A DNA stretch of 64,000 nt from Agrobacterium tumefaciens (GTDB lineage: Bacteria; Pseudomonadota; Alphaproteobacteria; Rhizobiales; Rhizobiaceae). The notes below the pieces were generated by a model. The model saw nothing but the letters and a program-made list of their open reading frames with translations. It had not been told where the DNA came from and made no database searches. Each line of letters opens with the position of its first letter. The stretch's first letter is position 1. This document shows, piece by piece, positions 23,582-47,631 of the stretch. The translations under genes were made by a program, and so were the position numbers. The stretch lies in contig NZ_CP039888.1 of assembly GCF_005221325.1 (NCBI RefSeq), positions 2,307,501-2,371,500 of the forward strand, given 5' to 3'.

Positions 23582-23587
23582 TCCTTC

Positions 23588-29156: not shown

Positions 29157-31874
29157 ATGGAACAAAGCCTTACGCGTTATATCTGGTCGCACACGAGGCG
29201 GCAGCAGCTTTTCATTCTGCTGATCGTGGCCCTGTCCATGATTCCCTATTTCCTTGCTTTCGATCTGCCCAAACAGATCGTCAACGGGCCTATTCAGGGG
29301 GATGGCTTCGAAGGGGCGAACGCGACGCAGCTCTTCATGCATCTCACGGTCGATATTCCCTATTGGGGCACCGTGACGTTGTTCCCCGGGCTCGAACTCA
29401 ATCGCATGTCGATGCTGATGGGGCTCAGCCTGACGTTCCTTGCGCTCGTCATCATCAACGGGCTCTTCAAATATTACATCAATACCTACAAGGGCCGCCT
29501 CGGCGAGCGGCTTCTGCGGCGTATCCGTTTCGAACTGATCGACAAAATCCTGCGGTTCCCGCCTTCGCATTTCAAGCGGGTCAAAGGCGCTGAAATCTCC
29601 AGCATGGTGAAGGACGAGGTGGAACCGCTCGGTGGATTTACCGGCGATGCCTTCGTGCAGCCGGCGCTTCTCGGCGGCCAGGCGCTCTCCGCGCTCTTCT
29701 TCATTCTCGTGCAGAATTTATGGCTCGGTCTGATCGCGGCTTTCATGGCCGCCATACAGGTCGGCATCATCCCCAAAATGCGCCGCCGCCTCATCGAACT
29801 CGGCCGCCAGCGGCAGCTGAGCGCGCGCCAGCTGGCTGGACGCATCGGCGAAATGGTCGATGGCATCGGCACGATCCATGCCTATGACACGTCCAATTAT
29901 GAGCGTGCCGACGCCTCGCACCGGCTCGGCGATATCTTCAAGATCCGTTACGATCTCTACCAGTGGAAGTTTCTCGTCAAATTCATCAATAACTTCCTGG
30001 CACAGCTCACACCCTTCTTCTTTTATGCGCTCGGCGGTTATCTCACCTTGAAAGGCAGCCTCGATGTCGGCCAGCTGGTCGCCGTCATCAACGCCTATAA
30101 GGAACTGCCTGGACCGCTGAAGGAACTGATCGACTGGGATCAGGCACGACAGGATGTCCAGGTAAAATACGAGCAGGTCTTCGAACAGTTCAATACGCCG
30201 AACATGATAGACGACAAGGTGCAGAAGCTGTCCCCGGGAACCGTCGCGGCGATCACCACGCCGCTCGTCATCGCCAATCTGACGCTTGAGGATGATAGCG
30301 GCAGCCGGCTTCTGGAGCAGGCATCGCTGAAGATCGAGCCGGGCGAGGTGATCGCCGTCGTCGGCGGCTCGGGAGCCGAGGCGCTGGCGGATGCGATCGG
30401 CCGCACGATCTGGCCAACCTCGGGCAAGGTCAGCATCAACGATATCGACATATTGGAACTGCCGGAATCGCTGACCGGGCGGCGCATTTCCTATGTTTCC
30501 TCGGACAGTTATTTTTTCCACGCCAGCCTGAAGGACAATCTGCTTTACGGCCTCAAGCACGCACCACTCGCAGACAAGAACTACGAGGGTGCTGCGCTGG
30601 AGCATCGCAAGTGGGAAATCCGCGAAGCCAAGATGGCAGGCAATCCGCTGATCGACATCAACAGCGAGTGGATCGATTACGCCTCAAGCCCGGCCGGCGA
30701 CGGCAAGCCGGAAAATCTGATTCGGGCCATTCTGGCCGTGCTCGATAGCGTGGAGTTGTCACAGGATATTCTGGAGTTTGCCCTGCGCTCGTCGATCGAT
30801 CCTCTGACCGACCTGCATCTTGCCGCCCGCATCGTGGAACTGCGTCATGTGCTGCGCGCCGAGCTGGAAAAGGAAAATCTGAGCGGCCTCATCGCGCCTT
30901 TCGAGCTGGAGAGCTACAATAGCGAGGCGACGGTTGGCGAAAACCTGTTGTTCGGCACCATGCGGGACTCTACACAGACGATCAGGACCATCATCGAAAG
31001 CGACTATTTCCGGTCGCTGATGCGCGAAACCGGCCTCGTCAAAACCCTGTTCGAAATGGGCTACACGATTGCCGAAAACATCGTGGAAATCTTCGCCGAC
31101 CTGCCGGGAGACCATCCTTTCTTCCAACAGCTCACCTTCATGACGCCCGATGACATTCCGGTCTACCAGCAGATGCTGCAGCGGCTTCAGGGAAAGAGTT
31201 TCGACGAGGCCAATGAAAGCGAAAAACGCGCGATGCTGCGGCTGAGCTTCTTCTACATCGAACCTCGCCAGCGTTTCGGTCTGTTGTCGCCGGAAATCAT
31301 GAACCGGATCGTCGAAGTCCGGCACATGTTCCACGAAAACCTGCCCGATAGTCTGAAAAACGTGATCGAAATCTACGATCCCACCAAATATATGAGCGCC
31401 ACCAGCCTTCTGGACAATATTCTCTTCGGCAAGGTGAGCCATCGCTATACCGACGCCTCGCGGCGTATCACCCGCATCGTCGCGGATGTCATGCGCAAGC
31501 AGGGCGTCTATGAGCGCGTGCTGGCGGTGGGGCTGGATTTCAACCTGGGTGCCGGCGGCAAGCGGCTTGGCCCGCTTCAGCGCCAGAAACTCAATCTCGC
31601 GCGGGCGCTGATCCGCAAATCCGATTATTACGTCTTCAACCGCCCCCTTCCCGGTCTCGACCCCCGACAGCAGGAGGAAATTGTCGAACGGGTCATCACA
31701 CTCCTGAAACAGAACAACAATAACCCCTCGATCGTCTGGGTTCTGTCGAATGCACACCTATCACGTATGTTCGAGCGGGTGATCGTCGTTCATCAGGGCC
31801 TGATCACGGCTGACGGAAGTTACGAGACTCTCGCCGAGGAAAACGGTACATTCAAGGACATGGTCGCGACATAA
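29157..31874 (+). CDS. ABC-exporter-like protein with degenerate, expanded ATPase domain
   Basis: 905 aa. The N-terminal 340 residues form an ABC type-1 exporter membrane domain (LLIVALSMIPYFLAFDLPKQ, six helices predicted). The nucleotide-binding domain is strongly altered. Walker A reads GGSGAEAL (residues 403-410) without Lys. The signature is LGPLQ (804-808) instead of LSGGQ. Walker B is YYVFNR (824-829) instead of a hydrophobic run plus DE. The Q-loop Gln is missing. About 330 residues are inserted between Q-loop and signature, and NLLYG/NLLFG/NILFG motifs recur at 461, 596 and 754. It probably cannot hydrolyse ATP by itself. A cAMP-binding protein gene follows 43 nt later. Confidence 0.85.
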   Translation: MEQSLTRYIWSHTRRQQLFILLIVALSMIPYFLAFDLPKQIVNGPIQGDGFEGANATQLFMHLTVDIPYWGTVTLFPGLELNRMSMLMGLSLTFLALVIINGLFKYYINTYKGRLGERLLRRIRFELIDKILRFPPSHFKRVKGAEISSMVKDEVEPLGGFTGDAFVQPALLGGQALSALFFILVQNLWLGLIAAFMAAIQVGIIPKMRRRLIELGRQRQLSARQLAGRIGEMVDGIGTIHAYDTSNYERADASHRLGDIFKIRYDLYQWKFLVKFINNFLAQLTPFFFYALGGYLTLKGSLDVGQLVAVINAYKELPGPLKELIDWDQARQDVQVKYEQVFEQFNTPNMIDDKVQKLSPGTVAAITTPLVIANLTLEDDSGSRLLEQASLKIEPGEVIAVVGGSGAEALADAIGRTIWPTSGKVSINDIDILELPESLTGRRISYVSSDSYFFHASLKDNLLYGLKHAPLADKNYEGAALEHRKWEIREAKMAGNPLIDINSEWIDYASSPAGDGKPENLIRAILAVLDSVELSQDILEFALRSSIDPLTDLHLAARIVELRHVLRAELEKENLSGLIAPFELESYNSEATVGENLLFGTMRDSTQTIRTIIESDYFRSLMRETGLVKTLFEMGYTIAENIVEIFADLPGDHPFFQQLTFMTPDDIPVYQQMLQRLQGKSFDEANESEKRAMLRLSFFYIEPRQRFGLLSPEIMNRIVEVRHMFHENLPDSLKNVIEIYDPTKYMSATSLLDNILFGKVSHRYTDASRRITRIVADVMRKQGVYERVLAVGLDFNLGAGGKRLGPLQRQKLNLARALIRKSDYYVFNRPLPGLDPRQQEEIVERVITLLKQNNNNPSIVWVLSNAHLSRMFERVIVVHQGLITADGSYETLAEENGTFKDMVAT

Positions 31875-31917
31875 ATCCAAGAATGTGACCGAGGTGGAAC
31901 AGGAACAGGGTAAGGCA

Positions 31918-32373
31918 ATGCTGTTTAAAGACGAAATTCAGATGTTGAAAAGGGTTCCGTTTTTCTCGGAAATGGAACCGTCCAAACTTAAGCTGCTCGC
32001 ATTCGCATCCGACCGGGTGTCCTATCACGCCGGGGATATACTGTTCCGGCAGGGAGATGTCGGCGATGCAGCCTATGTTCTCCTGACCGGAAAAGTGGAT
32101 GTTCTGGTCGATTCCCCATCGGGAACGCTGAAAGTGGCGGAAATGACCGGCAACGCCATCGTCGGTGAAATCGCCATTCTCTGTGACAGTGTCAGAACCG
32201 CGACCATCCGCGCCTCCACCAATGTGGAAGCCCTGCGCATCGGCAAGGAACAGTTCTTCAAGCTCATGTCCGATTTCCCCGACATCACCATCAAGGTCAT
32301 GCGCGTTCTCGCCGAACGCCTTACCCAGACGACGGCTGAGCTGAGCAAAGCACGCGCAGGCGCCAAGACATAA
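31918..32373 (+). CDS. Stand-alone cyclic-nucleotide-binding domain protein
   Basis: 151-aa protein consisting of one CNB domain and a short helical tail, with no DNA-binding helix-turn-helix. The phosphate-binding cassette is intact (GEIAILCDSVRTATIRA with the cAMP-contacting Glu and Arg). I choose the ATG at 31918, preceded by GGTAAGG, over a GTG at 31885. It lies just behind the degenerate ABC gene and upstream of an adenylate cyclase, so a role as cAMP sensor acting by protein contact, perhaps on the ABC protein, is a reasonable inference. Confidence 0.87.
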   Translation: MLFKDEIQMLKRVPFFSEMEPSKLKLLAFASDRVSYHAGDILFRQGDVGDAAYVLLTGKVDVLVDSPSGTLKVAEMTGNAIVGEIAILCDSVRTATIRASTNVEALRIGKEQFFKLMSDFPDITIKVMRVLAERLTQTTAELSKARAGAKT

Positions 32374-32564
32374 ACGACAATTCCTTGCTACCTTGAATGG
32401 CGATATTGGAAAAATAAATGTCGTACTATTGCAATATAAATGAAATGCTGACTGAATAAGGGGTAAAGGGGCCCGCCAGAAATGTGCGGATATAAGAATC
32501 GATAGAAACAACGGGCTTTCATGGGAGGAAAGCGTGCAAGATTCCGTTGTTATTGGGGTGTGCC

Positions 32565-33425
32565 ATGGCGTTCGGTTCCGACACAAGAAGTCGGGAAAGT
32601 AATAGAAATTTTCGGGTAAAGATCTGGGGTGCGCGGGGAACGCTTCCCGTTTCAGGTGAAAACTTCCGAAAATACGGCGGAAATACCATCTGCATCGAGG
32701 TAAGATGCGGTGATCACGTCCTTTTGTTCGATGCCGGTTCCGGCCTGCATCCCGCTGGTCTTGCGCTGCGGGCGGAAGGCATTACCGACGTCAACCTGTT
32801 CTTCTCGCACTGTCACTACGACCACATTGTCGGCTTTCCCTATTTCAAGCCCTTTTATAACAGCTCCAACGATGTCGCCATCTGGTCAGGCCACCTCGCC
32901 GGAAGCATGACCACCCGGGAAATGCTCAAGGATTTCATGAGCCCTCCCTGGTTCCCCGTGCCACTGGAGATTTGCTGCGCAAAGATCGCCACCCGGGATT
33001 TCAAGGCAGGCGACATGCTGGACGTGCATCCCGGCCTATCGATCAGAACCGGAATGCTCAACCATCCCGGCAATGCCATCGGATATCGCCTGGACTGGGA
33101 AGGAAAGTCGCTGGCCATCATCACCGATACCGAACATGAGCCCGGCAGTATCGACGAAACCGTTCTTGATCTCATCAGGGATGTCGATCTTTTCCTCTAT
33201 GACGCCATGTTCACCGATGAGGAAATGGGCCTTTACCGCGGTTATGGCCATTCCTCCTGGCAACAGGCAATCCGCCTTGCCAAGCTTGCCGACGCGAAAA
33301 GTGTGGGCTTCATCCACCACGCCCCAAGCCGCAGCGACGAGGAGCTGGATAATATCGAAAAACAGGCGAAAGCCGAGTTCAACGGCGCATTTGCGGCGAT
33401 GGACGGACAGATCATCGAACTTTGA
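32565..33425 (+). CDS. Metallo-beta-lactamase-fold hydrolase
   Basis: 286-aa MBL-fold enzyme of the PhnP/cyclic-phosphodiesterase-like group. It begins FRVKIWGARGTLPVSGENF and has FDAGSGLHPAG and the di-metal motif SHCHYDH (His82, His84, Asp86, His87); later ligands are in NHPGNAIGY, TDTEH and HHAPS. No signal peptide. The ATG at 32565 follows GGGG; the TTG at 32547 is less likely. Given the cyclase and the cAMP-binding protein on either side, a cyclic-nucleotide phosphodiesterase is an attractive guess, but the substrate is unproven. Confidence 0.83.
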   Translation: MAFGSDTRSRESNRNFRVKIWGARGTLPVSGENFRKYGGNTICIEVRCGDHVLLFDAGSGLHPAGLALRAEGITDVNLFFSHCHYDHIVGFPYFKPFYNSSNDVAIWSGHLAGSMTTREMLKDFMSPPWFPVPLEICCAKIATRDFKAGDMLDVHPGLSIRTGMLNHPGNAIGYRLDWEGKSLAIITDTEHEPGSIDETVLDLIRDVDLFLYDAMFTDEEMGLYRGYGHSSWQQAIRLAKLADAKSVGFIHHAPSRSDEELDNIEKQAKAEFNGAFAAMDGQIIEL

Positions 33426-33698: not shown

Positions 33699-35393
33699 AT
33701 GATCCGTTTCTTTTCGGAGACCAATTTAAGACGTGCCCGGATTTCATCCGGCCTCATCATATTTGCTTTCGTTTTTTTCCATCTCTCCAATCATTCCCTT
33801 GCACTCATTTCCATCGACACGGCTGAACGGGCGCGAAAATGGTTCAGCCTGATCTGGCTCAATCCCGTCAGCAGCCTGCTTTTTTACGGTTCGGTCGTGG
33901 TGCATGTCTGCCTCGTCCTGCGTTCGCTTTATCTGCGCAGGACGCTCCGCATGCCGCTGCGTGAGGCGCTTCAGGTCATATTCGGCCTGTCGATCCCGTT
34001 TCTGATCATCGGCCACGCCGTCAATATCCGAGTCTCGCATATGCTTTATGGCATCGACGTCGGTTATTATTCGGTCATCCGACGGCTCTGGATCAACAAT
34101 CCCGTCGGAGGCGCGTGGCAAAGCCTCGCATTGATTGTCATCTGGACCCATGGATGCATCGGCCTCTATTTCTGGCTGCGGTATCGCGAGTGGTATCCGA
34201 AAATCGCCGGGCTCTTCATGACGGTGGCTGTCATGCTGCCGCTCCTGGCGTTGCTGGGCTTCAGCGATGCAGGCCGCTGGCTGGAAGAGGTGGATCGGAA
34301 ATATGCGCTTCCTCCGGGGCTGACGGATAGCGCCATTCAGAGAGACGAACTCCCGCTGCAAAGGGAGATGGAAACGCAAATCCGGTTCATCACCGGCGCA
34401 ACCGAGGCGATTTTTGCCGGCGCGGTGATGCTGGTCTTCGTGTTGCGCGGTGTGCGAAGCTTCCGGCAACGGCTGACCGCGATTGAAATCCACTATGAAC
34501 AGGGCGCACAGGCGCGGATCCCGGCCGGGTTCAGCATTCTCGAAGCCAGCAGGCTTGCGGGCATTCCCCATTACTCCGTCTGCGGCGGCAAGGGGCGCTG
34601 CTCAACCTGTCGCGTCAAGGTTCTGAACAGCAAAGGGCCCCTTCCGCCGCCCGGAGACATCGAGCAGACGACGCTAAGGCGCATCCATGCCGATTCGGAT
34701 GTGCGGCTCGGCTGTCAGCTGCGCCCCACCAGCGATCTCGACATCGCGCTTCTCGTTTCACCACCCCGAGAGAGCGATCTGCCCGCGGATGCGCAGCAGG
34801 CCCGCCCCGGTCGAGAAGAGGAAATCGCCATCCTCTTCTGCGATCTGCGCAATTTCACCACGCTGTCCGAAGCGAGGCTGCCCTATGATGTGGTCTTCCT
34901 TCTCAACCGCTATTTCACCATCGTCGGCCAGGCCGTCGAACAGGCCGGTGGCCATCTCGACAAATTCATCGGTGACGGCGCCATGGCCCTTTTTGGACTT
35001 GGCGAGGATACGGACAGGGCCTGTCGCAACGCCATGAAGGCAGCCGCAACCATATTGCGGGATATCGCAATCCTGAACGAGGGGCTGGAAAAACAATTCG
35101 CCGTCCGCCTCGAAGTGGTGGTCGGCATTCACTCCGGTCCGAGCATCGTCGGCGTGATGGGATATGGCGCGGCAAAAACCCTGACAGCCATAGGCGATAC
35201 CGTGAATGTGGCAAGCCGGCTCGAATCCAAGGCCAAGGAATTCGGCGCCGCCATCGTCGTTTCCGAACCGGCCATCATTCAGGCTGGGCAGGAAATTGAC
35301 GATCTCAGAAGCGAAGAAATCGCCATTCGCGGACGAAACTCGCAGATGAAGGTGTATCTGCTCTCAAGAGAAGAGAGCGAGCGTTATCTGTAA
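33699..35393 (+). CDS. cyaC: CyaC-type redox-sensing membrane adenylate cyclase
   Basis: 564 aa with three modules. A six-helix membrane anchor (residues 15-250) carries several His suited to heme ligation (H28, H32, H69, H106, H114, H151). A 2Fe-2S ferredoxin domain follows (Cys295, Cys301, Cys304, Cys339). The C-terminal class III cyclase has metal ligands Asp382 and Asp426, Lys422 and Asp500 for adenine, and Asn503/Arg507. S. meliloti CyaC has been shown to be a quinone-responsive diheme-b adenylate cyclase with a binuclear Fe-S cluster; this architecture matches. It would convert respiratory redox state to cAMP. Confidence 0.9.
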   Translation: MIRFFSETNLRRARISSGLIIFAFVFFHLSNHSLALISIDTAERARKWFSLIWLNPVSSLLFYGSVVVHVCLVLRSLYLRRTLRMPLREALQVIFGLSIPFLIIGHAVNIRVSHMLYGIDVGYYSVIRRLWINNPVGGAWQSLALIVIWTHGCIGLYFWLRYREWYPKIAGLFMTVAVMLPLLALLGFSDAGRWLEEVDRKYALPPGLTDSAIQRDELPLQREMETQIRFITGATEAIFAGAVMLVFVLRGVRSFRQRLTAIEIHYEQGAQARIPAGFSILEASRLAGIPHYSVCGGKGRCSTCRVKVLNSKGPLPPPGDIEQTTLRRIHADSDVRLGCQLRPTSDLDIALLVSPPRESDLPADAQQARPGREEEIAILFCDLRNFTTLSEARLPYDVVFLLNRYFTIVGQAVEQAGGHLDKFIGDGAMALFGLGEDTDRACRNAMKAAATILRDIAILNEGLEKQFAVRLEVVVGIHSGPSIVGVMGYGAAKTLTAIGDTVNVASRLESKAKEFGAAIVVSEPAIIQAGQEIDDLRSEEIAIRGRNSQMKVYLLSREESERYL

Positions 35394-35430: not shown

Positions 35431-35913
35431 TCAAATCTTGCGATAAAGAAAATATCGATCCGTCGGCACGCTTTCCGGCACCGGCAGCGGTTTCAGCATG
35501 GCATGATCGAGTGGCAGGCCACTGATGGCGATGCCGCCTTTCGCCAGCATGCCCGCGGCAAGATCGGGCAGCCACGTCAAAGTAACCGCATCCTTTTCCG
35601 GATAACCCGTGCCGATATCGGCATGTATCATCGCCGCATCCGTTCCGATGAAGGCCGGAGCGGTTTGCGAGATTTCACCGATCACGAGATCCTCTGCCGC
35701 CGGAACGGAAGAGGCATGCGCGCCCATGGCCCTGTCGAAAGCGATGATACGGCGGTTCGGAAACAGTTCCCGCAGGTGATTGAAAGTGCGCCCGTTTCCA
35801 AGCCCGATTTCCATGAGCGCGCCCTGATCGGGCAGATCGAGATCGGCCTCGACATGGTTGAGGATATCGCGCTGCGCGGTCAACCGGCGAATAAAACTGT
35901 CCAGTCTGCTCAT
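35431..35913 (-). CDS. Class I SAM-dependent methyltransferase
   Basis: 160-aa small methyltransferase. The SAM-binding motif I is LMEIGLGNGRTFNHL, followed by an acidic strand end (IIAFDRAMG). It starts at the ATG at 35913, four nt past the stop of the nucleotide-sugar dehydrogenase, so the two are cotranscribed. The substrate is unknown; a small molecule or a sugar is possible given the glycan context. Confidence 0.8.
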   Translation of the reverse strand: MSRLDSFIRRLTAQRDILNHVEADLDLPDQGALMEIGLGNGRTFNHLRELFPNRRIIAFDRAMGAHASSVPAAEDLVIGEISQTAPAFIGTDAAMIHADIGTGYPEKDAVTLTWLPDLAAGMLAKGGIAISGLPLDHAMLKPLPVPESVPTDRYFLYRKI

Positions 35914-35917
35914 ATTA

Positions 35918-37258
35918 TCAGGCCTTGATGATGTGTTTTGCGGCGATATCCCGGCGCGCGAAGACATTTCGTGTATCGACGATCAGCGGCGCCCAGTCGC
36001 TGAGCGCAGCATAGTCGACATTGTCGTGATCCGTCGCGACAAGAACGGCATCGAAGCCGCCGATGGTATTACTGTCCCAAGATACGGATTTCATGCCCAT
36101 AAGGTGGCTATATTCCCGGGTTTTCGGAATTTCCGCCACATATGGATCGAAATAGGCCGCTTCGCCACCGCGCTCCTGAATAAGCTCCATGAGCTTCAGC
36201 GACGGGCTTTCGCGAATATCGGGCACGTTTTTCTTGTAGGCGAGACCGACGACCAGAACCTTGGAGCGGCTGAGCGCCTTGCCGGAATGGATATCGAGCG
36301 CTTCGGCAACCCGCCCGACGACATGGCGCGGCATGCCGGTATTGATTTCGCCGGCAAGCTCGATGAACCGCGTCGGCAATTCATATTCGCGTGATTTCCA
36401 GGTGAGGTAGAACGGGTCGATCGGTATGCAATGGCCGCCGAGACCCGGACCGGGATAAAACGGCATGAAACCGAACGGCTTGGTTTTCGCCGCGTCGATC
36501 ACTTCCCAAATGTCGATACCCATCGCCTCGTAGACGACCTTGAGTTCGTTAACGAGGGCGATATTGACGGCGCGGAAGACATTTTCGGTGATTTTCACCG
36601 CCTCGGCCGTGGCATTGGTCGAAACCGGAACGATCTTCTTCACCACGGAGCCGTAGAAGGCGGCCATCAATTTTCCGGCAGCCTCGCCGTCACCGGCGAC
36701 GACCTTCGGGATAGTAGAGGTTTCGAAGTCGCTATTGCCGGGGTCTTCCCGCTCGGGCGAAAAGCCGATGAAGAAATCAACGCCGGAGACCAGGCCAGTG
36801 CTCTCCAGAATGGTCTTCACCACCCCGTCGGTCGTGCCGGGATAGGTGGTCGATTCCAGCACCACGAGCTGCCCCTTGCGCAGATGGGTGGCAATCTCCC
36901 GGCAGGTTTTTTCAACATAGGAAAGGTCCGGCTCGCGATATTTCGTCAGCGGCGTCGGCACACAGATGGCGATTACATCGCATTCGGCCAGCCTGGAGAA
37001 ATCGCTGCTGGCAACGAAACCGTCATCCTGCCGCACACTTGCCAGCACCTCATCGGAAACTGCCTCGATATAGCTGCGGCCCGCTTCGATCGCAGTAATT
37101 TTACCGGGGTCGATGTCGAAACCGACAACCTTGAAACCAGCCTTGGCGACCGTCATGGCAAGCGGCAGGCCAACATAGCCGAGGCCGATCACCCCCGCTT
37201 TTGCGCTTCTGTTTTCGATGCTGGAAAGCAAGGTCTGGGAAATGTCTGGAGAAGTCAA
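35918..37258 (-). CDS. UDP-N-acetyl-sugar 6-dehydrogenase (WbpA/WecC-like)
   Basis: 446-aa UDP-sugar dehydrogenase that oxidises C6 of a nucleotide sugar to a uronic acid with NAD. The N-terminal Rossmann motif is GVIGLGYVGLPLAMTVAKAG and the catalytic cysteine lies in GPGLGGHCIPIDPFYL. The sequence resembles the UDP-GlcNAc/ManNAc group more than UDP-glucose dehydrogenase. It is divergent from a glycosyltransferase gene (127 bp apart) and probably supplies an acidic sugar for a surface polysaccharide. Confidence 0.92.
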   Translation of the reverse strand: MTSPDISQTLLSSIENRSAKAGVIGLGYVGLPLAMTVAKAGFKVVGFDIDPGKITAIEAGRSYIEAVSDEVLASVRQDDGFVASSDFSRLAECDVIAICVPTPLTKYREPDLSYVEKTCREIATHLRKGQLVVLESTTYPGTTDGVVKTILESTGLVSGVDFFIGFSPEREDPGNSDFETSTIPKVVAGDGEAAGKLMAAFYGSVVKKIVPVSTNATAEAVKITENVFRAVNIALVNELKVVYEAMGIDIWEVIDAAKTKPFGFMPFYPGPGLGGHCIPIDPFYLTWKSREYELPTRFIELAGEINTGMPRHVVGRVAEALDIHSGKALSRSKVLVVGLAYKKNVPDIRESPSLKLMELIQERGGEAAYFDPYVAEIPKTREYSHLMGMKSVSWDSNTIGGFDAVLVATDHDNVDYAALSDWAPLIVDTRNVFARRDIAAKHIIKA

Positions 37259-37385: not shown

Positions 37386-38483
37386 ATGAAGATCGCCTTT
37401 TATTCGCCGCTCAAATCGCCCAACCATCCCGTTCCCTCCGGCGACCGGCTGATGGCCCGACTGTTGATGAAAGCGATGACGATGGGCGGCCACGACGTTT
37501 TCGTCGCCTCCGAACTACGCAGCTTCCTGAAACAGCCGGACGATCCGGCGCGGCCATCGCTCGCCGATGAGGCCGGGCGCGAAATCGAAACGATCGCGGA
37601 GCGCTGGCGGCGGGAGGGCGCGCCGGACCTCTGGTTTTGTTATCACCCCTATTACAAGGCCCCTGACCTGCTCGGCCCGGAACTGGTGCAGCGTTTTGGC
37701 CTTTCCTATGTCACCGCCGAGGCATCCTATTCACCGAAACGCAACGGCATGGGCTGGCAGGCGGTTCAGGACGGGTTGCTCGCCGCATTGAACGGGGCCG
37801 CGGTCAATATCTGCTTCACCGCGCGGGATCGTGAAGGGCTTGTGCGCGCTTCCTCCACCCTGCAATGGGCGATGTTGCCGCCCTTCATCGATGCCGGGGC
37901 ATTTCTCAGCAACACACCCCGGCCGGAGCCAGCAAGGCTCATCACCGTCGCCATGATGCGGGCGGGCGACAAGCTCTCGAGCTATCGTACCCTATCCGAA
38001 GCGCTGGCCTTGTTGCCTGGGAATCTCGACTGGACGCTGGACATCGTCGGCGACGGCCCGGAACGCGCGGCCGTAGAGGCGATGTTCAGCGCTTTTCCCG
38101 ATCACCGCCTCGTCTGGCACGGGGAAAAAAGCCCAACGGAGATCGCGGCACTTCTTTCAAAAGCTGCCTTCTATGTCTGGCCGGGCCATGGCGAGGCCTA
38201 TGGTCTCGCCTATCTTGAAGCACAGGCCGCCGGCCTGCCCGTCGTGGCCGAAAAAGTCGCCGGCGTTCCCGAAGTGGTAAAATCCGGCACGACAGGATTA
38301 CTGACACCGGAAAATGATACAGCCGCTTATGCCGAGACGATCAAGACCCTGCTCGGTGATGACAGGCAGCGTGAGGAACTGGCAAAAGCGGCCCGCCAGT
38401 TCGTCATCAATGAACGATCTCTGGAAAACGCCGCAGCAAAGCTGAACCAAATTCTTTTGCAGGCAAAGGCACAAAGATCATGA
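37386..38483 (+). CDS. Glycosyltransferase family 4 protein
   Basis: 365-aa GT-B retaining transferase. The C-terminal donor site contains WPGHGEAYGLAYLEAQAAG, matching the family ExxxxxxxE motif, followed by PVVAEKVAGVPEVV. The N-terminal half starts MKIAFYSPLKSPNHPVPSGDRL. It overlaps the deacetylase gene by four bases, so the two act together in glycan assembly. Donor and acceptor cannot be read from the sequence. Confidence 0.9.
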   Translation: MKIAFYSPLKSPNHPVPSGDRLMARLLMKAMTMGGHDVFVASELRSFLKQPDDPARPSLADEAGREIETIAERWRREGAPDLWFCYHPYYKAPDLLGPELVQRFGLSYVTAEASYSPKRNGMGWQAVQDGLLAALNGAAVNICFTARDREGLVRASSTLQWAMLPPFIDAGAFLSNTPRPEPARLITVAMMRAGDKLSSYRTLSEALALLPGNLDWTLDIVGDGPERAAVEAMFSAFPDHRLVWHGEKSPTEIAALLSKAAFYVWPGHGEAYGLAYLEAQAAGLPVVAEKVAGVPEVVKSGTTGLLTPENDTAAYAETIKTLLGDDRQREELAKAARQFVINERSLENAAAKLNQILLQAKAQRS

Positions 38484-39223
38484 GTCTGGAAAAACTCAAA
38501 GCGGCACTGGATGAATGCAGCCGACGCGGCATAAAGGCCGATCTCTGGCTGCGGGACGACGATGCCGTGGAACCGACACCGGCTCTCGACCTATTGCTTG
38601 ATCTTTGCGGCAGCTTTTCCGTTCCGGTCACTCTCGCGGTCATTCCCGAGATGACGACGGATAAGCTCGCAACACATCTGGATGCCTCAGATATCGCTGA
38701 GGTCGCCGTCCATGGCTGGTCCCATGTGAATTACGCCGGGGCCGAAGAAAAGAAACAGGAACTCGGGTCGCATCGCGACCCGGCCATCGTGCTTGATGAA
38801 TTGCAATCGGGACTGGATAAGCTCCACGACCTGCATGGCGGTCGTCTGGTGCCAATGCTGGTGCCGCCGTGGAACCGAATCGACGCCGGTATCGTGAAGA
38901 GTTTGGCGGATATCGGATATCGCGCCTTATCCGTTTTCGGCCCTGAGAAAAACACCGTGCCGCCTTGTCTGAACACCCATGTCGATGTCATCGACTGGCA
39001 TGGCAGCCGCGGCGGCCGTGACGACGATATCCTGTTTTCCGAGACCGCCGCCCGCATTCTGCGCACCGCCGAAGAGGGCGGCACGACCGGCATCCTCACC
39101 CATCATCTCGTGCATGACGACACTGTGTGGCGCTTCCTGCGGCGGCTTTTCGAAGTGACCACCGGGCATCCTGCCGCCCGCTGGCGTTCCTCGAAGGACC
39201 TCGTCAACGGGATATCACCATGA
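38480..39223 (+). CDS. Polysaccharide deacetylase family protein
   Basis: 247-aa NodB-like fold. The first metal and catalytic Asp are in DLWLRDDDAV, and the HxxxH pair is HGWSH. Typical later segments are LVPPWNRIDAGI and TGILTHHLVHDD. No signal peptide is seen, so it may deacetylate a cytoplasmic glycolipid precursor. It is coupled to the upstream glycosyltransferase (ATGA). Its 3' end overlaps the convergent glycosyltransferase gene by 9 bp. Confidence 0.85.
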   Translation: MSLEKLKAALDECSRRGIKADLWLRDDDAVEPTPALDLLLDLCGSFSVPVTLAVIPEMTTDKLATHLDASDIAEVAVHGWSHVNYAGAEEKKQELGSHRDPAIVLDELQSGLDKLHDLHGGRLVPMLVPPWNRIDAGIVKSLADIGYRALSVFGPEKNTVPPCLNTHVDVIDWHGSRGGRDDDILFSETAARILRTAEEGGTTGILTHHLVHDDTVWRFLRRLFEVTTGHPAARWRSSKDLVNGISP

Positions 39224-40387: not shown

Positions 40388-42280
40388 ATGAGCGCAGGCG
40401 CAGATTTGCTCCGTATTGAAAATCTGCGGGTCTCTTTTTCTCTCATGGGCGGCACCATCGATGCCGTCAGGGGCGCGAGCCTTCGTATTCTTCCGGGAAA
40501 AGTCACTGCCCTCGTCGGCGAGTCCGGCTCCGGAAAATCCGTCATCGGCCAGACCATCATGGGCATCCATCCCAAAACGGCGCGCGTGAACGGCCGCGTG
40601 CTGTTCACCGATCCGGAAAATGCCGCAGCCGGCCCCATCGATCTGCTGCAATTGCCGAAGGACGGCCGGGAAATCCGTTCGATACGCGGCAATCGCATCG
40701 GTCTGATTTTTCAGGAGCCCATGACCTCCTTTTCGCCGCTGCACACCATCGGCAACCAGATCGATGAAGCGCTCAGGATCCACAGCATCCTGTCGCCGGC
40801 CGAGCGCGCGGAAAAAATGTATGAAACGCTCGATCTCGTGGGGTTTTCCAAACCCAAGAAGGTCGTGAACATGTATCCCTTCGAACTGTCGGGCGGCATG
40901 CGTCAGCGCGCCATGATCGCCATGGCGCTCATCTGTCGGCCTGCACTTTTGATTGCGGATGAGCCGACGACGGCGCTGGATGTGACGATACAGGCGCAAA
41001 TCCTCAAGCTGCTGCGCGATCTTCAGAGCCGGTTGAATATGAGCATGCTGCTCATCACCCACGATCTTGGTGTGGTCGCCAATATCGCCGACGAAGTGGC
41101 CGTGATCTATCAGGGAGAGATCATGGAAGCCGGTACGGTCGATGACATTTTCAAGGCGCCGGGCCACCCCTATCTCAAGGGCCTGATGGCCGCCGTACCG
41201 CATTTCGACATGAAGCCCGGCGAAAGGCTGAAGGCGCTGCGCGAAATCAAGGTGGACCACGAAAGCCTTGTCGGAAAAAAGACCGCCGCGGTCAACAAAA
41301 CCCCCGGCCCGCTTCTGACCGTCGATAACATCAGCAAGACCTTCACGAGCCGCAAATCCAGCTGGTTCCGCAAAAGCGACGCCAATGCCACGAAGGCGGT
41401 CAACAGCGTCAGTTTTGAAATCCGTCGCGGCGAGTGCCTCGGGCTGGTCGGCGAAAGTGGCAGCGGCAAGACCACCGTCAGTAAAATCCTCATGCGCGCC
41501 GTCCGCCCGGATGAGGGTTCGATAACCTTTCACCGGCCGGAAGGTGATATCGATGTCCTCAATGCGAAGGACGGTGATCTCAAGGAGCTGCGCTCGAAGA
41601 TACAAATGGTCTTTCAGGACCCGATTTCATCGCTGTCCCCCCGCATGACGGTGGGCAATATCCTGAGCGAGCCGCTCGAAATCCACGGACGGGGAGATGC
41701 GAAATACCGCGCGGAAAAAGTCCGGGGTCTCGTCAGGGCCATCGGCCTTGGAGAAAGCGCGCTGAACCGCTATCCCCATAGCTTCTCCGGCGGCCAGAGG
41801 CAGCGTATCGGCATTGCCCGCGCCTTGGCACTCGGCCCCGAACTGCTGATCTGCGATGAGCCCGTCTCCGCTCTCGATGTCTCGGTGCAGGCGCAAATCC
41901 TCAATCTGCTGAAGGATTTGCAGCAGGACCTCGGGCTCACCTATCTCTTCATCTCGCATAATCTCGCGGTGGTGGATTATATGGCCGACCGCGTGGCCGT
42001 GATGTGCGAGGGCCGTATCGTGGAACTGGCGCCGCGGGAAATCCTGATGCGCTCTCCGGTTCACCCCTATACGAAATCCCTGCTGGCCGCCGTGCCTTTT
42101 CCCGATCTCGATCGTCCGCTCGATTTCCGCACCATCGGCAAGATCAGCGCGACGGGCAAATTCGACTGGGGCAGGCAGTTCCGGGACGAGGGTGATGGCG
42201 AGATGATATCAGCCGATCTCGGCGAAGGCCATTTCGTCCTTGCCAACGGCAATGTCGATATCCGGGAGCTTCGCCCTTGA
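40388..42280 (+). CDS. Peptide ABC transporter, fused dual ATPase (YejF/Opp type)
   Basis: 630 aa with two complete ATPase domains in one chain. Each has Walker A (GESGSGKSV and GESGSGKTT), the signature ([12 protein letters not shown] and [12 protein letters not shown]), Walker B ([12 protein letters not shown] and [12 protein letters not shown]) and an H-loop. Fused dual ATPases serve dipeptide/oligopeptide and microcin C importers such as YejF. First gene of a four-gene operon; the next gene begins at its stop codon. Confidence 0.93.
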
Positions 42281-44178
42281 TCACGCGCCGCACCACGCTC
42301 GCCTTGCTGGCCTCCGTCTTCCTGCCGGCCTATGCGCGCGCCGCCTATATCGACCCAGCCTATTTCAAGGAAAAACGCGAAAAGGGCGAATTGCCCGGCG
42401 TGGCCGAACGCCTGCCGAAAAACCCGCGCGTCATCGACATGAAAGCGCTTGGCCGCGAGCCGGGAAAACACGGCGGCTCGGTGCGTATGCTGATTGGCGG
42501 CCAGCGCGATATCAGGTTGATGCCGATCAGCAGCTATGCCCGCCTTGTCGGTTATGACGAAAAATTTGAGCTTCATCCGGACATTCTGGAAAGCTATGAC
42601 GTTCAGGAAGAACGCATCTTCACCTTCAAGCTGCGCGAGGGCCACAAATGGTCCGATGGCAGCGACTTTACTTCAGAGGATTTCCGCTATTTCTGGGAGG
42701 ATGTCGCTCTCAATAAGGAAATTCACAAGGGCGGTCCGCCGATCGAACTTCTGGTCAACAATAATCCGCCGCTGATCGAAGTCGTCGACCGGCTGACGGT
42801 GCGTTACACCTGGGAAGGCCCGAACCCGGATTTCCTGGCGAAGCTCGCGGCGGCCTCGCCTGCGCGACTGTTCCTTCCCGCCGCTTACATGAAACAGTTC
42901 CACGTCAAATATCAGACAGCGGAAAATCTCGCCAAGCTCATCAAGAAGAACAAGGCGGACGACTGGAGCGGGCTGCATATCAAGATGTCACGGCAGGTCC
43001 GGCCGGAGAACCCCGCTTTGCCGACGCTCGACGCATGGCGAAACACGACCTCGCCGCCGGCGGAGCAGTTCGTGTTCGAGCGCAATCCCTATTATCACCG
43101 CGTCGACGAAAATGGCCTGCAGCTGCCCTATCTCGACCGTTTCCTGCTCAACGTCACCTCCTCCGATATCATCTCCGCCAAGACGGCATCGGGTGACAGC
43201 GATCTGCAATATTTCGGCCTCGACTTTGCCGATTACACCTTCCTGAAGGATGCCGAAAAGCGTTTCCCCCTGAAGGTCAATCTCTACAAGCGCTCCCAGG
43301 GCTCACGCATCGCGCTGCTGCCCAATCTCAATTGCGCCGACCCGGTCTGGCGCAGCGCGTTCCAGGACGTGCGCGTGCGCCGTGCCCTGTCGCTCGCGAT
43401 CAACCGGCATGAAATCAACATGGTCTGCTTCTACGGGCTGGCAAAAGAAAGCGCCGACACCGTCCTGCCGGAAAGCCCGCTTTACCGGCAGGAATTTGCC
43501 GACGCCTGGAGCGCCTTTGACCGGGCAGCGGCCAACAGGCTGCTCGATGAAGCGGGTTTCGACAAACGCGACAATGCCGGCCTTCGGCTCCTGCCGGATG
43601 GTCGACCCGCCTATATCATCGTCGAGACGACAGGCGAAAGCACGCTCGAAACCGATGTCATGGAACTGGTAACGGATCACTGGCGGCATATCGGCATTGC
43701 GGTTTCGGTGCGCCCCACCCAGCGCGACGTCTTCCGCAAGCGCGCCATGGGCGGCGAGGTGCTGATGTCGGTGTGGATGGGCATGGACAATGGCGTGCCC
43801 ACACCTGACATGCTGCCTTCCGGCCTCGCCCCCACCGGCGACGATCAGCTGCAATGGCCGGTCTGGGGCGTGCACTATCTTTCTGGCGGCCGCGAGGGCA
43901 AGGAGCCCGACCTGCCGGAGGCGGCGCATCTTCTCGATCTCCTCAAAAAATGGCGCAGAAGCGTTACCGAGGAAGAACGCGAGGCGATCTGGCTGGAAAT
44001 GCTCGGGATTTATACGCAGCAGGTATTTTCGATCGGCATCGTCAACGGCGCGCTGCAACCCGTCGTCCATGTCAAACGCATGCGAAACGTGCCGGACAAG
44101 GCGCTTTTCGGTTACGAACCCACATCCTATCTCGGCGTCTATATGCCGGATGCCTTCTGGTATGACGGAGACGCCTGA
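42277..44178 (+). CDS. Peptide ABC transporter substrate-binding protein (SBP family 5)
   Basis: 633-aa periplasmic receptor starting with a twin-arginine-like signal ([22 protein letters not shown]). The family body follows (FTFKLREGHKWSDGSDFTSEDF, DVRVRRALSLAINRHEI). It appears to use a TTG start at 42277 that overlaps the preceding TGA; a GGGAG ribosome-binding site is eight nt upstream. The long form fits YejA-like receptors, which bind longer peptides. Ligand unknown. Confidence 0.92.
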   Translation: MITRRTTLALLASVFLPAYARAAYIDPAYFKEKREKGELPGVAERLPKNPRVIDMKALGREPGKHGGSVRMLIGGQRDIRLMPISSYARLVGYDEKFELHPDILESYDVQEERIFTFKLREGHKWSDGSDFTSEDFRYFWEDVALNKEIHKGGPPIELLVNNNPPLIEVVDRLTVRYTWEGPNPDFLAKLAAASPARLFLPAAYMKQFHVKYQTAENLAKLIKKNKADDWSGLHIKMSRQVRPENPALPTLDAWRNTTSPPAEQFVFERNPYYHRVDENGLQLPYLDRFLLNVTSSDIISAKTASGDSDLQYFGLDFADYTFLKDAEKRFPLKVNLYKRSQGSRIALLPNLNCADPVWRSAFQDVRVRRALSLAINRHEINMVCFYGLAKESADTVLPESPLYRQEFADAWSAFDRAAANRLLDEAGFDKRDNAGLRLLPDGRPAYIIVETTGESTLETDVMELVTDHWRHIGIAVSVRPTQRDVFRKRAMGGEVLMSVWMGMDNGVPTPDMLPSGLAPTGDDQLQWPVWGVHYLSGGREGKEPDLPEAAHLLDLLKKWRRSVTEEEREAIWLEMLGIYTQQVFSIGIVNGALQPVVHVKRMRNVPDKALFGYEPTSYLGVYMPDAFWYDGDA

Positions 44179-44179
44179 T

Positions 44180-45178
44180 ATGCTGCGGTATATAATCAAG
44201 CGCATCCTCGTCATGATCCCCACACTGATCCTGATCTCGATGCTGGTCTTCACCATCATCGAACTGCCGCCGGGCGATTATTTCGAAAGCTACGTCGCCG
44301 AGCTGCGCGCCATGGGTGAGACGGCAAACCTTGCCGAAATCGAGGAATTGCGCACCCGCTACGGTTTCGATCAGCCGGCCCCGATCCGCTATTTCCGCTG
44401 GGCGACCGGCATGCTGGTCGGCGATTTCGGTTATTCCTTTGAATATCAGCTGCCGGTCAGCGATGTGGTGGGAGACCGCCTCTGGCTGACGGTTCTGGTC
44501 TCCTTCGTCACCATCATCGTCACCTGGATCCTTGCCTTTCCGATCGGCATCTACTCTGCCACGCATAAATACAGCTGGGGCGATTATGGGCTCACCTTCC
44601 TCGGCCTGCTCGGCATCGCCATCCCCAACTTCATGCTGGCGCTGATCCTGATGTATTTTGCCAATATCTGGTTCGGTATTTCGATCGGTCATCTGATGGA
44701 CCGGGAATATCTGAATCAGGCGATGAGCTGGGCAAAGTTCAAATCGATCCTCGAACATATCTGGATCCCCGTCCTCATCATCGGAACGGCAGGCACAGCC
44801 GGCATGATCCGCCGCCTGCGGGCCAATCTGCTGGACGAGTTGCAGAAACAATATGTGGTGACAGCCCGCGCCAAGGGGCTGCATCCCTTCAAGGTGCTGA
44901 TCAAGTATCCGCTGCGCATGGCGCTGAATTTCTTCATCTCGGATATCGGCTCGATCCTGCCCGCCATCATATCAGGCGCGGAAATCACCGCCGTCGTCCT
45001 GTCGCTCGAAACCACAGGCCCCATGCTCATCCGGGCTTTGCAAAGCCAGGATATGTATCTGGCCGGCTCGTTCCTGATGTTCCTGGCTTTCCTGACTGTC
45101 ATCGGCGTTCTTGTGTCGGATATCGCCCTTGCCATACTCGACCCGCGAATCCGCTTCGGAGGTGGTAACGTCAAATGA
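44180..45178 (+). CDS. Peptide ABC transporter permease 1 (YejB/OppB type)
   Basis: 332-aa inner-membrane permease with the N-terminal helix MLRYIIKRILVMIPTLILIS and the EAA-type loop AKGLHPFKVLIKYPLRMALN. I start it at the ATG at 44180, one nt after the receptor stop; the frame is open upstream inside the receptor gene but that part is not real. It overlaps the second permease by four bases. Confidence 0.93.
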   Translation: MLRYIIKRILVMIPTLILISMLVFTIIELPPGDYFESYVAELRAMGETANLAEIEELRTRYGFDQPAPIRYFRWATGMLVGDFGYSFEYQLPVSDVVGDRLWLTVLVSFVTIIVTWILAFPIGIYSATHKYSWGDYGLTFLGLLGIAIPNFMLALILMYFANIWFGISIGHLMDREYLNQAMSWAKFKSILEHIWIPVLIIGTAGTAGMIRRLRANLLDELQKQYVVTARAKGLHPFKVLIKYPLRMALNFFISDIGSILPAIISGAEITAVVLSLETTGPMLIRALQSQDMYLAGSFLMFLAFLTVIGVLVSDIALAILDPRIRFGGGNVK

Positions 45179-46350
45179 CTTCATCCATTCCGAAATCAGG
45201 CGAAGCGCTCCCCCATTACGTCTCGACGGCACCCTTCGACCCGTCGCTCATCGAACCCAACACTTCTGGAATGGCGGCCTTCAGCAAGGCATCACAACTG
45301 AAGCTGATGTGGTGGCAATTCCGCCAGCACAAGATCGCTGTGTGGTCCGGCGCGTTTCTGGCGGTGATCTATCTTTCGATCCTGATCAGCGAGTTCCTCG
45401 CCCCTTACAATCTCCATACCCGCAATATCGAGCATATCTACGCACCGCCGCAGTCCATTCATCTTTTCAACGACGGAAAATTTGTCGGCCCCTTCGTTTA
45501 TGGCCGGGAAATGACACTCGATATGGACAATCTGCGGCGCGTCTACCGAGATGTGCCGACGGATATCCAGCCGCTGCGTTTCTTCTGCAAGGGCGATACC
45601 TATCGCTTCTGGGGCATGTTCGAGGGCAGAACCCACTTCGTATGCCCGGCCGAAGGCGGCGAAATGTTCCTGCTCGGCACCGACAGGCTGGGGCGCGATG
45701 TGCTGTCGAGGATCATCTATGGTGCGCGCATTTCGCTGACCATCGGCCTTCTCGGCGTCGCCATGAGCTTCGTTCTCGGCATTGTGATCGGTGGTCTGGC
45801 GGGTTATCGCGGTGGCACCTTCGACCTGATTGTCCAACGCATCATCGAGGTGCTGCAATCCATCCCCAGCATTCCGCTATGGCTGGCGCTCGCGGCAATC
45901 ATGCCGGTGACCTGGAGCCCGATCCTCGTCTATCTCGGCATCACCATCATTCTCGGCATGCTGGACTGGACCGGCCTTGCGCGCGCCGTGCGCTCGAAGC
46001 TTCTGGCGCTTCGCGAGGAAGACTATGTTTTGTCTGCACAATTAATGGGTGCCGGCACGCCGCGCATCATCGGCAGACACCTTATTCCCGGCTTCATGTC
46101 GCACTTGATCGCATCGGCCACCCTTACGATACCGGGCATGATTCTCGGCGAAACCGCACTGAGCTTCCTCGGCCTCGGTCTCAGGCCACCGATCACAAGT
46201 TGGGGAATTCTGCTCACGGAGGCGCGCAGCGTCAGCGTCATTGCGCTATATCCGTGGCTTCTCATCCCGACGATCCCGGTCGTTCTCGTCATTCTGGCCT
46301 TTAATTTCTTCGGCGACGGACTACGTGATGCTGCGGACCCCTTCAGATAA
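45175..46350 (+). CDS. Peptide ABC transporter permease 2 (YejE/OppC type)
   Basis: 391-aa permease. A cytoplasmic N-terminus leads to TM1 and then an unusually long periplasmic segment (about residues 75-165) that contains RFWGMFEGRTHFVCPAEGG, as in YejE-type subunits. It continues with LGTDRLGRDVLSRIIYGAR and the EAA loop QLMGAGTPRIIGRHLIP. Last gene of the transporter operon; glycosyltransferase genes follow 72 nt later. Confidence 0.93.
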   Translation: MTSSIPKSGEALPHYVSTAPFDPSLIEPNTSGMAAFSKASQLKLMWWQFRQHKIAVWSGAFLAVIYLSILISEFLAPYNLHTRNIEHIYAPPQSIHLFNDGKFVGPFVYGREMTLDMDNLRRVYRDVPTDIQPLRFFCKGDTYRFWGMFEGRTHFVCPAEGGEMFLLGTDRLGRDVLSRIIYGARISLTIGLLGVAMSFVLGIVIGGLAGYRGGTFDLIVQRIIEVLQSIPSIPLWLALAAIMPVTWSPILVYLGITIILGMLDWTGLARAVRSKLLALREEDYVLSAQLMGAGTPRIIGRHLIPGFMSHLIASATLTIPGMILGETALSFLGLGLRPPITSWGILLTEARSVSVIALYPWLLIPTIPVVLVILAFNFFGDGLRDAADPFR

Positions 46351-46422
46351 AATGGAATACGCCTTGATTAACTGCCCTTCCGAAGCCGCCTTCATCGTGA
46401 AAGGCAAAAAGAGGTGTGGCCC

Positions 46423-47631
46423 ATGAGCTCCCGTTTGAACGACGCGCGTATTCTCATGTACAGCCATGATTCCTTCGGCCTCGGCCATCTGCGACGGTGT
46501 CGCACCATCGCGCATGCCCTGGTGGAGGATTATCGCGGCCTCAACGTTCTCATCATATCGGGAGCGACCATTGCCGGCGCCTTCGATTATCGCGCCCGCG
46601 TCGATTTCGTGAAAATCCCGAGCGTCATCAAGCTGCGCAATGGCGAATACACTTCGATGGACAGGCATATCGATCTTCAGGAAACGCTGAAGATGCGCCG
46701 CTCGATCATCTATCATACCGCCGAGAGCTTCCAGCCTGATATCTTCATCGTCGACAAGGAGCCGATGGGCCTGCGAGGCGAGGTAGAGGAAACGCTTGCC
46801 TATCTCAAGGGACAGGGCACCAAGCTCGTCATCGGGCTGCGTGACGTCATGGATGCGCCGCAGTTGCTCGAGGCCGAGTGGAAGCGCAACAACGTCATGA
46901 CCAAGATCGGCCAGTTCTATGACCATGTCTGGGTCTATGGCCCGCCGGATTTCCACGACCCGCTGACGGGGCTCGATGTTCCTGAGACCGTGCGCGACAA
47001 AATGGATTTCGTCGGATTCCTGCAGCGATCCAAGACGCAGGCCGAAACCGTGGCGCACCGGCCGGAAGGCGATTATCTTCTCATCACCACCGGCGGTGGC
47101 GGCGATGGCAGTGAACTGATCGATGACGTCATCAACGCCTATCGCCATGACCCGGAACTGACGCACAAGGCGCTTGTCGTGCTCGGCCCCTATATGCCGG
47201 CGGATCAGCGCCAGCGCTTCATGAGCAGCGTTGCCGATATTCCGCATATCGAGATCATCGAATTCGACAACCGCATGGAAGACCTCGTCGCCGGAGCCCA
47301 GGCCGTTGTCTCCATGGGCGGCTATAATACCGTCTGCGAAATATTGTCCTTCGATAAGCCCGCCCTCGTCGTGCCGCGCACGGTGCCACGGGAAGAGCAG
47401 CTTATCCGCGCCACCCGCGCATCTGAGCTCGGTCTGTTCGACATGCTTCTGCCGGAAGACGCAGAGAACCCCGCAAAAATGGCAGAGGCTCTCAAAGCCC
47501 TGCCAAACCGCGCACCACCTTCCGTCAACTCGCAGAATCTGAAGCTCGACGGTCTGGAAAACATCTCGCGCCGGATCGCCGAATGGCTGCCGCCCGAGAG
47601 CGAAAAGGCGCCGATTACGCTCACCGCGTGA
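46423..47631 (+). CDS. Predicted glycosyltransferase (COG4671, MurG-like GT-B), copy 1
   Basis: 402-aa GT-B protein. The N-terminus ILMYSHDSFGLGHLRRCRTIAHAL is the acceptor-domain start. The C-terminal donor site is DLVAGAQAVVSMGGYNTVCEIL, related to the UDP-sugar site of MurG and GT28 enzymes. I choose the ATG at 46423 with AGAGGTG upstream rather than the GTG at 46414. It belongs with the next two glycosyltransferase genes and is a paralog of the second one after it. Confidence 0.85.
   Translation: MSSRLNDARILMYSHDSFGLGHLRRCRTIAHALVEDYRGLNVLIISGATIAGAFDYRARVDFVKIPSVIKLRNGEYTSMDRHIDLQETLKMRRSIIYHTAESFQPDIFIVDKEPMGLRGEVEETLAYLKGQGTKLVIGLRDVMDAPQLLEAEWKRNNVMTKIGQFYDHVWVYGPPDFHDPLTGLDVPETVRDKMDFVGFLQRSKTQAETVAHRPEGDYLLITTGGGGDGSELIDDVINAYRHDPELTHKALVVLGPYMPADQRQRFMSSVADIPHIEIIEFDNRMEDLVAGAQAVVSMGGYNTVCEILSFDKPALVVPRTVPREEQLIRATRASELGLFDMLLPEDAENPAKMAEALKALPNRAPPSVNSQNLKLDGLENISRRIAEWLPPESEKAPITLTA

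Follow-up and report, generated by a model that had tools for sequence, protein, structure and literature searches.

A conserved ABC-exporter-fold protein with a degenerate ATPase and an adjacent cyclic-nucleotide-binding partner in Agrobacterium tumefaciens

ATP-binding cassette (ABC) exporters are the classic example of pumps powered by ATP, and degenerate sites are known in heterodimeric exporters such as TAP, TM287/288 and CydDC. Other ABC proteins, SUR1/SUR2 (ABCC8/9) and CFTR, have taken on a regulatory or gated-channel role, with ATP still bound and one or more sites still working. According to PMC13316013, protons drive SbmA, a membrane domain of the ABC fold which descends from a YddA-like one split from its nucleotide-binding domain (NBD); SbmA/BacA (SLiPT) and the NBD-bearing YddA/BclA provide a precedent for an ABC-type membrane domain without an ATPase. 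Cyclic nucleotides and ABC exporters are joined in the cyanobacterial annotation 'cyclic nucleotide-regulated ABC bacteriocin/antibiotic exporter', reported in PMC8707875, a likeness by label only. The gene analyzed here, located at 29157..31874 (+) of a 64,000 nt stretch of Agrobacterium tumefaciens DNA (contig NZ_CP039888.1, positions 2,307,501 to 2,371,500, hereafter the window), encodes an ABC-exporter-fold protein with a degenerate NBD. It corresponds to Atu2577 by gene order, Atu locus tags being assigned here in this way and not via a database record; a 98% identical protein found among the homologs is labelled A. fabrum. In the open-access literature, nothing was found on this family beyond one paper mentioning Atu2577, and the 'pseudo-ABC transporter' of PMC6956336 is SufBCD.

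The open reading frame (ORF) starts with ATG and is free of stops for 905 codons. A six-helix exporter membrane domain is present (residues 1-345, 29157..30191 (+)), as indicated by a Pfam ABC_membrane match (PF00664, residues 87-311, E 9e-23) and by the AlphaFold2 model, and is accompanied by an NBD fold, recognized by VIA in the predicted structure. The Pfam ABC_tran match (PF00005) is fragmentary (residues 386-480, E 1e-8); no other Pfam model, SbmA/BacA included, was matched at E <= 1. A VIA match to the ComA NBD covers the N-terminal, P-loop part of the NBD (residues 370-480, 30264..30596 (+)). The best sequence and fold matches are to type IV ABC exporters (MsbA, TmrAB, TM287/288, NdvA), which have the same membrane domain and NBD fold; unlike them, the clade of the window protein lacks the catalytic motifs, carries two added helical-segment copies, shows an inverted pattern of conservation and is paired with a cyclic-nucleotide-binding (CNB) partner. 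Unlike SbmA/BacA, both the window protein and the tested membrane-domain-only sisters match PF00664, and the window protein keeps its NBD and is CNB-paired; it is neither an NBD-free membrane domain nor a member of the SbmA/BacA sequence family. The reading favored here, tentatively and at somewhat less than an even chance, is that the protein serves a glycan pathway as a translocator or gate with an ABC fold, its control having moved from ATP to a cyclic-nucleotide subunit.

Alignment to the canonical positions confirmed the degenerate motifs of the original prediction. The Walker A equivalent, GGSGAEAL (30363..30386 (+)), lacks both Lys and Ser/Thr, replaced by A407 and E408; the Q-loop Gln is replaced by S449; the signature is LGPLQ (residues 804-808, 31566..31580 (+)); the Walker B equivalent, YYVFNR (residues 824-829, 31626..31643 (+)), ends in N828-R829 instead of Asp-Glu, and the H-loop His is replaced by S864. 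The features of a type IV exporter ATPase, i.e. Walker A Lys and Ser/Thr, LSGGQ, Walker B Asp-Glu and H-loop His, are therefore missing, and ATPase activity is probably lost. The sequence statements of the original prediction are right, apart from the length of the insertion given below. The signature Gln (Q808) and the D-loop Asp (D835) are still canonical.

The same losses were found in a close set of 118 full-length homologs, the window protein included. At position 407, the Lys has given way to Ala (75 sequences) or Gly (43) throughout; position 828, corresponding to the Walker B Asp, is Asn in 118/118; position 829 is Arg in 116, Lys in one and His in one, with the Walker B Glu found in 0/118. 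Neither the Q-loop Gln nor the H-loop His occurs (0/118 for both), and the signature Ser is kept in 3/118. The degenerate motifs are thus conserved, no close ortholog carrying canonical ones (0/118), and a chance loss is excluded, because these changes are shared by the 118 close homologs and the gene is found in all 39 genomes of the genus. A wider alignment, composed of 164 sequences (160 once rows at least 95% alike are dropped), was scored for eight residues: Walker A Lys and Ser/Thr, Q-loop Gln, signature Ser and first Gly, Walker B Asp and Glu, and H-loop His. No sequence has all eight (0/164), two have six (L006 and L088), and Lys, Asp and Glu occur together in 4/164. The mean number of canonical residues is 0.19 for the 27 close, Rhizobiaceae-type sequences, 1.07 for 15 Roseobacter-type ones and 2.86 for the 122 others, so that motif decay across the relatives is graded, not uniform.

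The gene was detected in 39/39 genomes of the genus, its own genome included, in 57 of the 121 genomes sampled from the family and in 96 of the 289 sampled from the class (E <= 1e-60); at the same threshold, using the relative L030 as query, it was found in 28 of 398 genomes sampled from the phylum. Values of dN/dS were calculated by the Nei-Gojobori method with an in-house script, comparing the window gene with 28 of 29 fetched genus orthologs, and are reported as medians. The value for the whole gene is 0.046, indicative of purifying selection; together with the presence in 39/39 genus genomes, it rules out a pseudogene or a sequencing artefact, in agreement with the original view of an open, non-decaying frame. 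The membrane domain, previously described as intact, is indeed strongly conserved (0.030), while values of 0.095 and 0.052 were obtained for the P-loop and C-terminal halves of the NBD and 0.035 for the insertion (residues 481-770). Constraint is therefore strong on the insertion and weakest on the P-loop half. A phage origin was discarded, since a viral-contig scan gave two pattern matches, neither related. Multiple ABC-like copies, with open frames of over 1000 aa, were observed in genomes G154 (three places) and G388 (two places).

The insertion, originally estimated at 330 residues, measures 293 (residues 466-758, 30552..31430 (+)) and repeats the Q-loop/helical segment of the NBD itself two more times, as deduced from repeat profiles and from the spacing between last copy and signature. 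The motif T/S-[LVI]-x-[DE]-N-[IL]-L-[FY]-G occurs three times, ending at residues 465, 600 and 758, and is each time preceded by a Q-loop-like stretch. The first copy is contained within the Q-loop segment (residues 442-465, ...SLKDNLLYG, 30480..30551 (+)), the second reads YNSEATVGENLLFG (587-600, 30915..30956 (+)) and the third reads YMSATSLLDNILFG (745-758, 31389..31430 (+)), with the signature following at canonical spacing. By hhalign, segment B (572-732) matches segment C (728-905) with 98.0% probability (E 2.6e-13), and the first copy, A, gives weaker matches to C (89.4%) and to B (86.5%). The last segment matches canonical NBDs with 99.9% probability (E 2.5e-35), and segment B alone matches a canonical NBD weakly (14%). 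In the window protein, 338 residues separate the first 'DNLLYG' from the signature and 45 separate the third copy, 'DNILFG', from it. In all 164 aligned sequences the former distance ranges between 309 and 408 residues, and the latter is 45 in 164/164; the canonical control, measurable in 22 of 27 sequences, has a median of 44. Judging from these alignments, it is the third copy alone which leads into the signature. A foreign inserted domain was set aside in favor of internal repeats, on the basis of the B versus C and copy A profile matches.

Only 10 nt past the ABC stop lies a gene for a lone CNB domain protein of 162 aa (31885..32373 (+); Pfam cNMP_binding, E 8e-21), in which the pocket, GEIAI...RTAT, is intact. 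No DNA-binding domain was detected in it by Pfam, and the match to NCBIfam TIGR03896 is weak (48 bits, cut-off 161). The frequency of neighboring genes was evaluated as tblastn matches (E 1e-6) located anywhere in 80 named loci of 3 to 23 kb, many of which end early. A CNB match is present in 75/80 loci, and is found on the same strand, at most 500 nt downstream, in 66 of the 75 loci having at least 700 nt of downstream sequence; like those for the glycosyltransferases reported below, these are raw counts, not enrichments over a background rate. The phosphate-binding cassette is preserved: among 120 distinct CNB sequences drawn from the loci, a few fused ones included, Gly is found in 118, Glu in 111 (Asp in 6), Arg in 118, Thr in 101 and Ala in 113. 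Given the loss of the NBD motifs and the retention of this cassette, the nucleotide pocket is gone from the NBD and kept in the adjacent CNB protein. Roseobacter-type relatives carry the CNB domain as a C-terminal fusion: among the matches listed, PF00027 is found in 120/120 and the PF00005 label is missing from many. A separate fusion, in which ABC membrane domain, degenerate NBD, CNB and GGDEF domains follow each other, is encoded by a single 1221-aa ORF (locus L114, 9956-13621).

In the favored reading, the protein, probably a homodimer, would no longer be run by ATP hydrolysis, and its NBD would be retained as a platform with structural and regulatory functions, made larger by the two added copies of its own helical segment. 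The adjacent CNB protein would couple to the enlarged NBD, and cAMP or a related nucleotide, by binding to the CNB subunit, would switch the membrane domain; the latter would move, or license the movement of, the product of the glycan cluster across the inner membrane, presumably drawing energy from elsewhere than ATP. The likely local source of the signal in this Agrobacterium would be a CyaC-type redox cyclase, encoded three genes downstream of the ABC gene. A broader version of this model, in which a cAMP-like nucleotide gates surface-glycan export across Alphaproteobacteria through a second-messenger-gated, ATP-independent ABC-fold translocator, and a sister branch has dropped the NBD, is more doubtful.

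The cyclase (33699..35393 (+)) is an adenylate/guanylate cyclase of class III, with matches to Guanylate_cyc and Fer2; it carries a 2Fe-2S domain, and its N-terminal part is hydrophobic. It shares 2Fe-2S and class III domains and active-site residues with the redox-controlled adenylate cyclase CyaC of S. meliloti, as K422, T496, N503 and R507 are each located 12 positions after the residues named in PMC10463352. Unlike the window cyclase, S. meliloti cyaC adjoins TetR and LysR regulator genes, according to the same paper, in the main text of which the term 'ABC' does not occur. Genome-wide, three matches to the window cyclase, itself included, were found at E <= 0.001. Between the CNB and cyclase genes lies a gene for an MBL-fold hydrolase (32547..33425 (+)), which resembles models of RNase Z and of cyclic-nucleotide phosphodiesterase weakly, with scores below threshold; it was not retained as a general partner, since a match is present in just 4/80 named loci, though in 6/20 of another locus set.

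Besides the raw nature of the neighbor counts, several observations weigh against the cyclic-nucleotide-controlled translocator. The fused CNB pocket of Roseobacter-type members has Asp for Glu in 120/120 sequences and mostly Gln-Leu for Thr-Ala; these domains may bind something else or nothing, which weakens a uniform cAMP model. The AlphaFold2 model of a CNB-fused member is of moderate confidence (pLDDT 71.6, pTM 0.51), for which reason no CNB-NBD interface is claimed; VIA comparison of this model returned ABC proteins only, with the CNB part barely covered. A cyclase match is present in only 13/80 named loci; the cyclase is a recurrent, not a universal neighbor, and a local cyclase is not general. 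The transport role of the ABC protein is assigned by association. Finally, among relatives belonging to neither degenerate group, the Walker A Lys persists in 74/121, the Walker B Glu in 72/121 and, in a regrouped set, the H-loop His in 42/122, so that some of them may still bind, or slowly hydrolyse, ATP.

The retained residues fit an explanation in which the system is still nucleotide-driven, ATP being bound or hydrolysed either via the retained fold or with the aid of a canonical half-transporter partner encoded elsewhere, in the manner of the degenerate-site heterodimers TAP, TM287/288 and CydDC. The same relatives also keep the signature Gln (111/121), and L006 and L088 hold six of the eight scored residues. 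The window protein, however, has lost both the Walker and the signature motifs, which would damage either composite site. A tblastn search with a canonical exporter along the flanks of the 80 loci revealed no match starting in the membrane domain, a distant or divergent gene being possible, and NBD matches, found in nine loci, overlapped ORFs of importer ATPases in 9/9. The NBD is moreover less conserved than the membrane domain, its P-loop part having the highest dN/dS. This explanation is considered unlikely, and is ranked after that of a receptor or scaffold, discussed below.

The relative conservation of the two domains was evaluated on 10,507 family pairs at 35-60% identity, and on 234 pairs formed by one canonical exporter of the same genome and 26 relatives. 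Mean pair identity in the family is 53.4% for the membrane domain, 39.3 and 38.6% for the NBD parts and 41.7% for the insertion, and the membrane domain is more conserved than the NBD in 99.2% of the pairs; in the control, the corresponding values are 32.9% for the membrane domain and 67.6% for the NBD, the membrane domain being ahead in 0% of the pairs, a comparison which is a description and not a test statistic, as pairs are non-independent and the control is a single family. At a cut-off of 93% invariance over the 164 sequences, 63 positions qualify in the membrane domain, 15 in the insertion, and 4 and 7 in the NBD parts. Relative to the canonical exporter, the pattern of conservation is inverted.

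The phylum search with L030 also revealed four membrane-domain-only relatives, with frames of 382-425 aa and 42-46% identity. One of them, in L143, matches PF00664 only, and a search started from it detected 597 proteins at E <= 1e-3 among 7,999 scored; 120/120 among the matches listed are 389-521 aa long and devoid of PF00005, within a length limit which leaves out the 900-aa members. In a tree, 20 membrane-domain-only sequences form a clade (support 100/100) beside the family, over a saturated joining branch of about 9.9 changes per site and with NdvA and L147 as long rows. Family and clade lie apart from canonical exporters, although the family does not occupy a single side of a branch (2 changes). 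Because of the saturated branch, the sister relation is based on clade support and on the 42-46% identity matches, and not on the root. The membrane domain is thus maintained, in the sister clade, without any fused NBD, which is also the case for SbmA (PMC13316013). Two of these relatives, L141 6531-7730 and L143 6540-7781, are found in loci with multicopper-oxidase-like genes, and L141 also holds a metal-ATPase-like gene (names read from sequence).

Membrane-domain-only sisters and graded motif decay are both expected if the NBD is a relic on its way out, the membrane domain works alone and the CNB neighbor acts elsewhere. Such a slow loss is very improbable in view of the dN/dS values of the insertion (0.035) and of the C-terminal NBD part (0.052), of the 309-408 residues retained between first copy and signature in 164/164 sequences, and of the fusion of CNB onto the NBD end in Roseobacter-type members.

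The main rival is a signalling receptor or scaffold, i.e. a glycan- or lipid-sensing platform which, with the CNB protein, would regulate glycosyltransferases or the importer in a SUR-like manner, with nothing being moved. The loss of motifs in a predicted fold otherwise intact would agree with it; the enlarged, strongly constrained insertion fits protein docking, the GGDEF fusion in L114 suggests signalling, and SUR chains are found among the VIA rows for the window protein, a likeness in fold only. The conservation data point the other way, since the membrane domain is conserved above all other parts (63 near-invariant positions) and stands alone in the sisters, which better fits transport or gating; in addition, no dedicated glycan exporter was found among the neighbor families identified in the named loci, some neighbors being unidentified. 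A role as receptor or scaffold is therefore possible, but doubtful. The original prediction had suggested a receptor or a regulated scaffold in place of a pump: regulation is in line with the CNB partner, but a dead ATPase is no proof against a pump, given the membrane-domain-only sisters, the proton-driven SbmA and the location in a glycan cluster, which would presumably need an exporter. The CNB partner gene, the origin of the insertion from internal repeats and the motif residues kept in more distant relatives are additions to that prediction.

If the cyclic-nucleotide-controlled translocator is real, a large family under selection, combining a pump body, a dismantled motor and a cyclic-nucleotide switch, would represent a second route, beside SbmA/BacA, away from the primary pump, with semi-degenerate, fully degenerate, CNB-fused and membrane-domain-only intermediates all extant. 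It would also provide a handle on an uncharacterised glycan cluster reported (PMC9790009) to influence phenazine tolerance in Agrobacterium as well as the fitness of a mutant in peptidoglycan recycling. In that paper, Atu2577 is labelled as a putative ABC exporter, Atu2582 as UDP-GlcNAc dehydrogenase, and Atu2583, Atu2590 and Atu2592 as glycosyltransferases, five labels with which the gene order of the window agrees. There, Tn-Seq mutations in these five genes raised the fitness of a yejABEF deletion, and the cluster is described as likely to make an uncharacterised glycan, earlier tied to phenazine tolerance.

Past the cyclase, the window contains genes for a SAM methyltransferase (Methyltransf_17, 35431..35967 (-)), with a match in 36/80 named loci, and for a nucleotide sugar dehydrogenase (35918..37258 (-), TIGR03026 above cut-off), Atu2582 by order. 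The glycan and importer gene set proper extends over 37386-50070. It includes glycosyltransferase GT2 (37386..38483 (+), Atu2583 by order, identified by locus matches), a polysaccharide-deacetylase-like protein below the Pfam cut-off (38480..39223 (+)), a probable glycosyltransferase, Atu2590 by order (46414..47631 (+)), glycosyltransferase GT1 (47675..48922 (+)) and the GT28-like glycosyltransferase GT3, Atu2592 by order (48904..50070 (+)). The Atu2590 product takes its label from PMC9790009; NCBIfam gave no match for it at E 1e-20, and Pfam was not searched. Matches recurring by the ABC-CNB pair were found in 62, 62 and 63 of the 80 named loci for GT1, GT2 and GT3, respectively, with queries that can cross-match one another, in 54/80 for a histidine phosphatase and in 50/80 for the deacetylase-like protein.

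A complete Opp/Dpp/Yej-type importer, located at 40388-46350 within the glycan cluster, co-recurs in other Alphaproteobacteria. It is made up of a dual ATPase (40388..42280 (+)), a substrate-binding protein (SBP_bac_5, 42277..44178 (+)), a first permease (43790..45178 (+), ORF as listed, true start internal), with a counterpart in L114, and a second permease (45175..46350 (+)). Of 60 wide loci, 41 carry the ATPase at near full length and two more a partial copy, with looser clustering giving 45; binding protein and permeases are present in L106 and L114, and when the whole genome is searched with the L106 binding protein and the L114 permease, the top matches fall inside the window set. The substrate of the importer may be a glycan fragment.

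In L045 (6123-7439), a gene for an AmpG family muropeptide transporter (TIGR00901, above cut-off) directly follows the ABC-CNB pair, a notable neighbor, as mutations in Atu2577 alter the fitness of a peptidoglycan-recycling mutant. Only 5/80 named loci have an AmpG-type gene in the 2 kb or so that follow the ABC gene, and a general link of this kind to peptidoglycan recycling was discarded.

Upstream of the ABC gene, at 21487-24571, genes for an acyl-CoA dehydrogenase, an amino acid--[acyl-carrier-protein] ligase (NF005479, above cut-off) and a DUF1839 protein stand in a row, and appear from their matches to be an aminoacyl carrier-protein group. Divergent from the ABC gene, at 26992-28851 (-), lies a gene for a 619-aa protein with two exosortase-A-associated hydrolase domains, a TIGR03101-like one followed by a TIGR03100-like one, both below cut-off.

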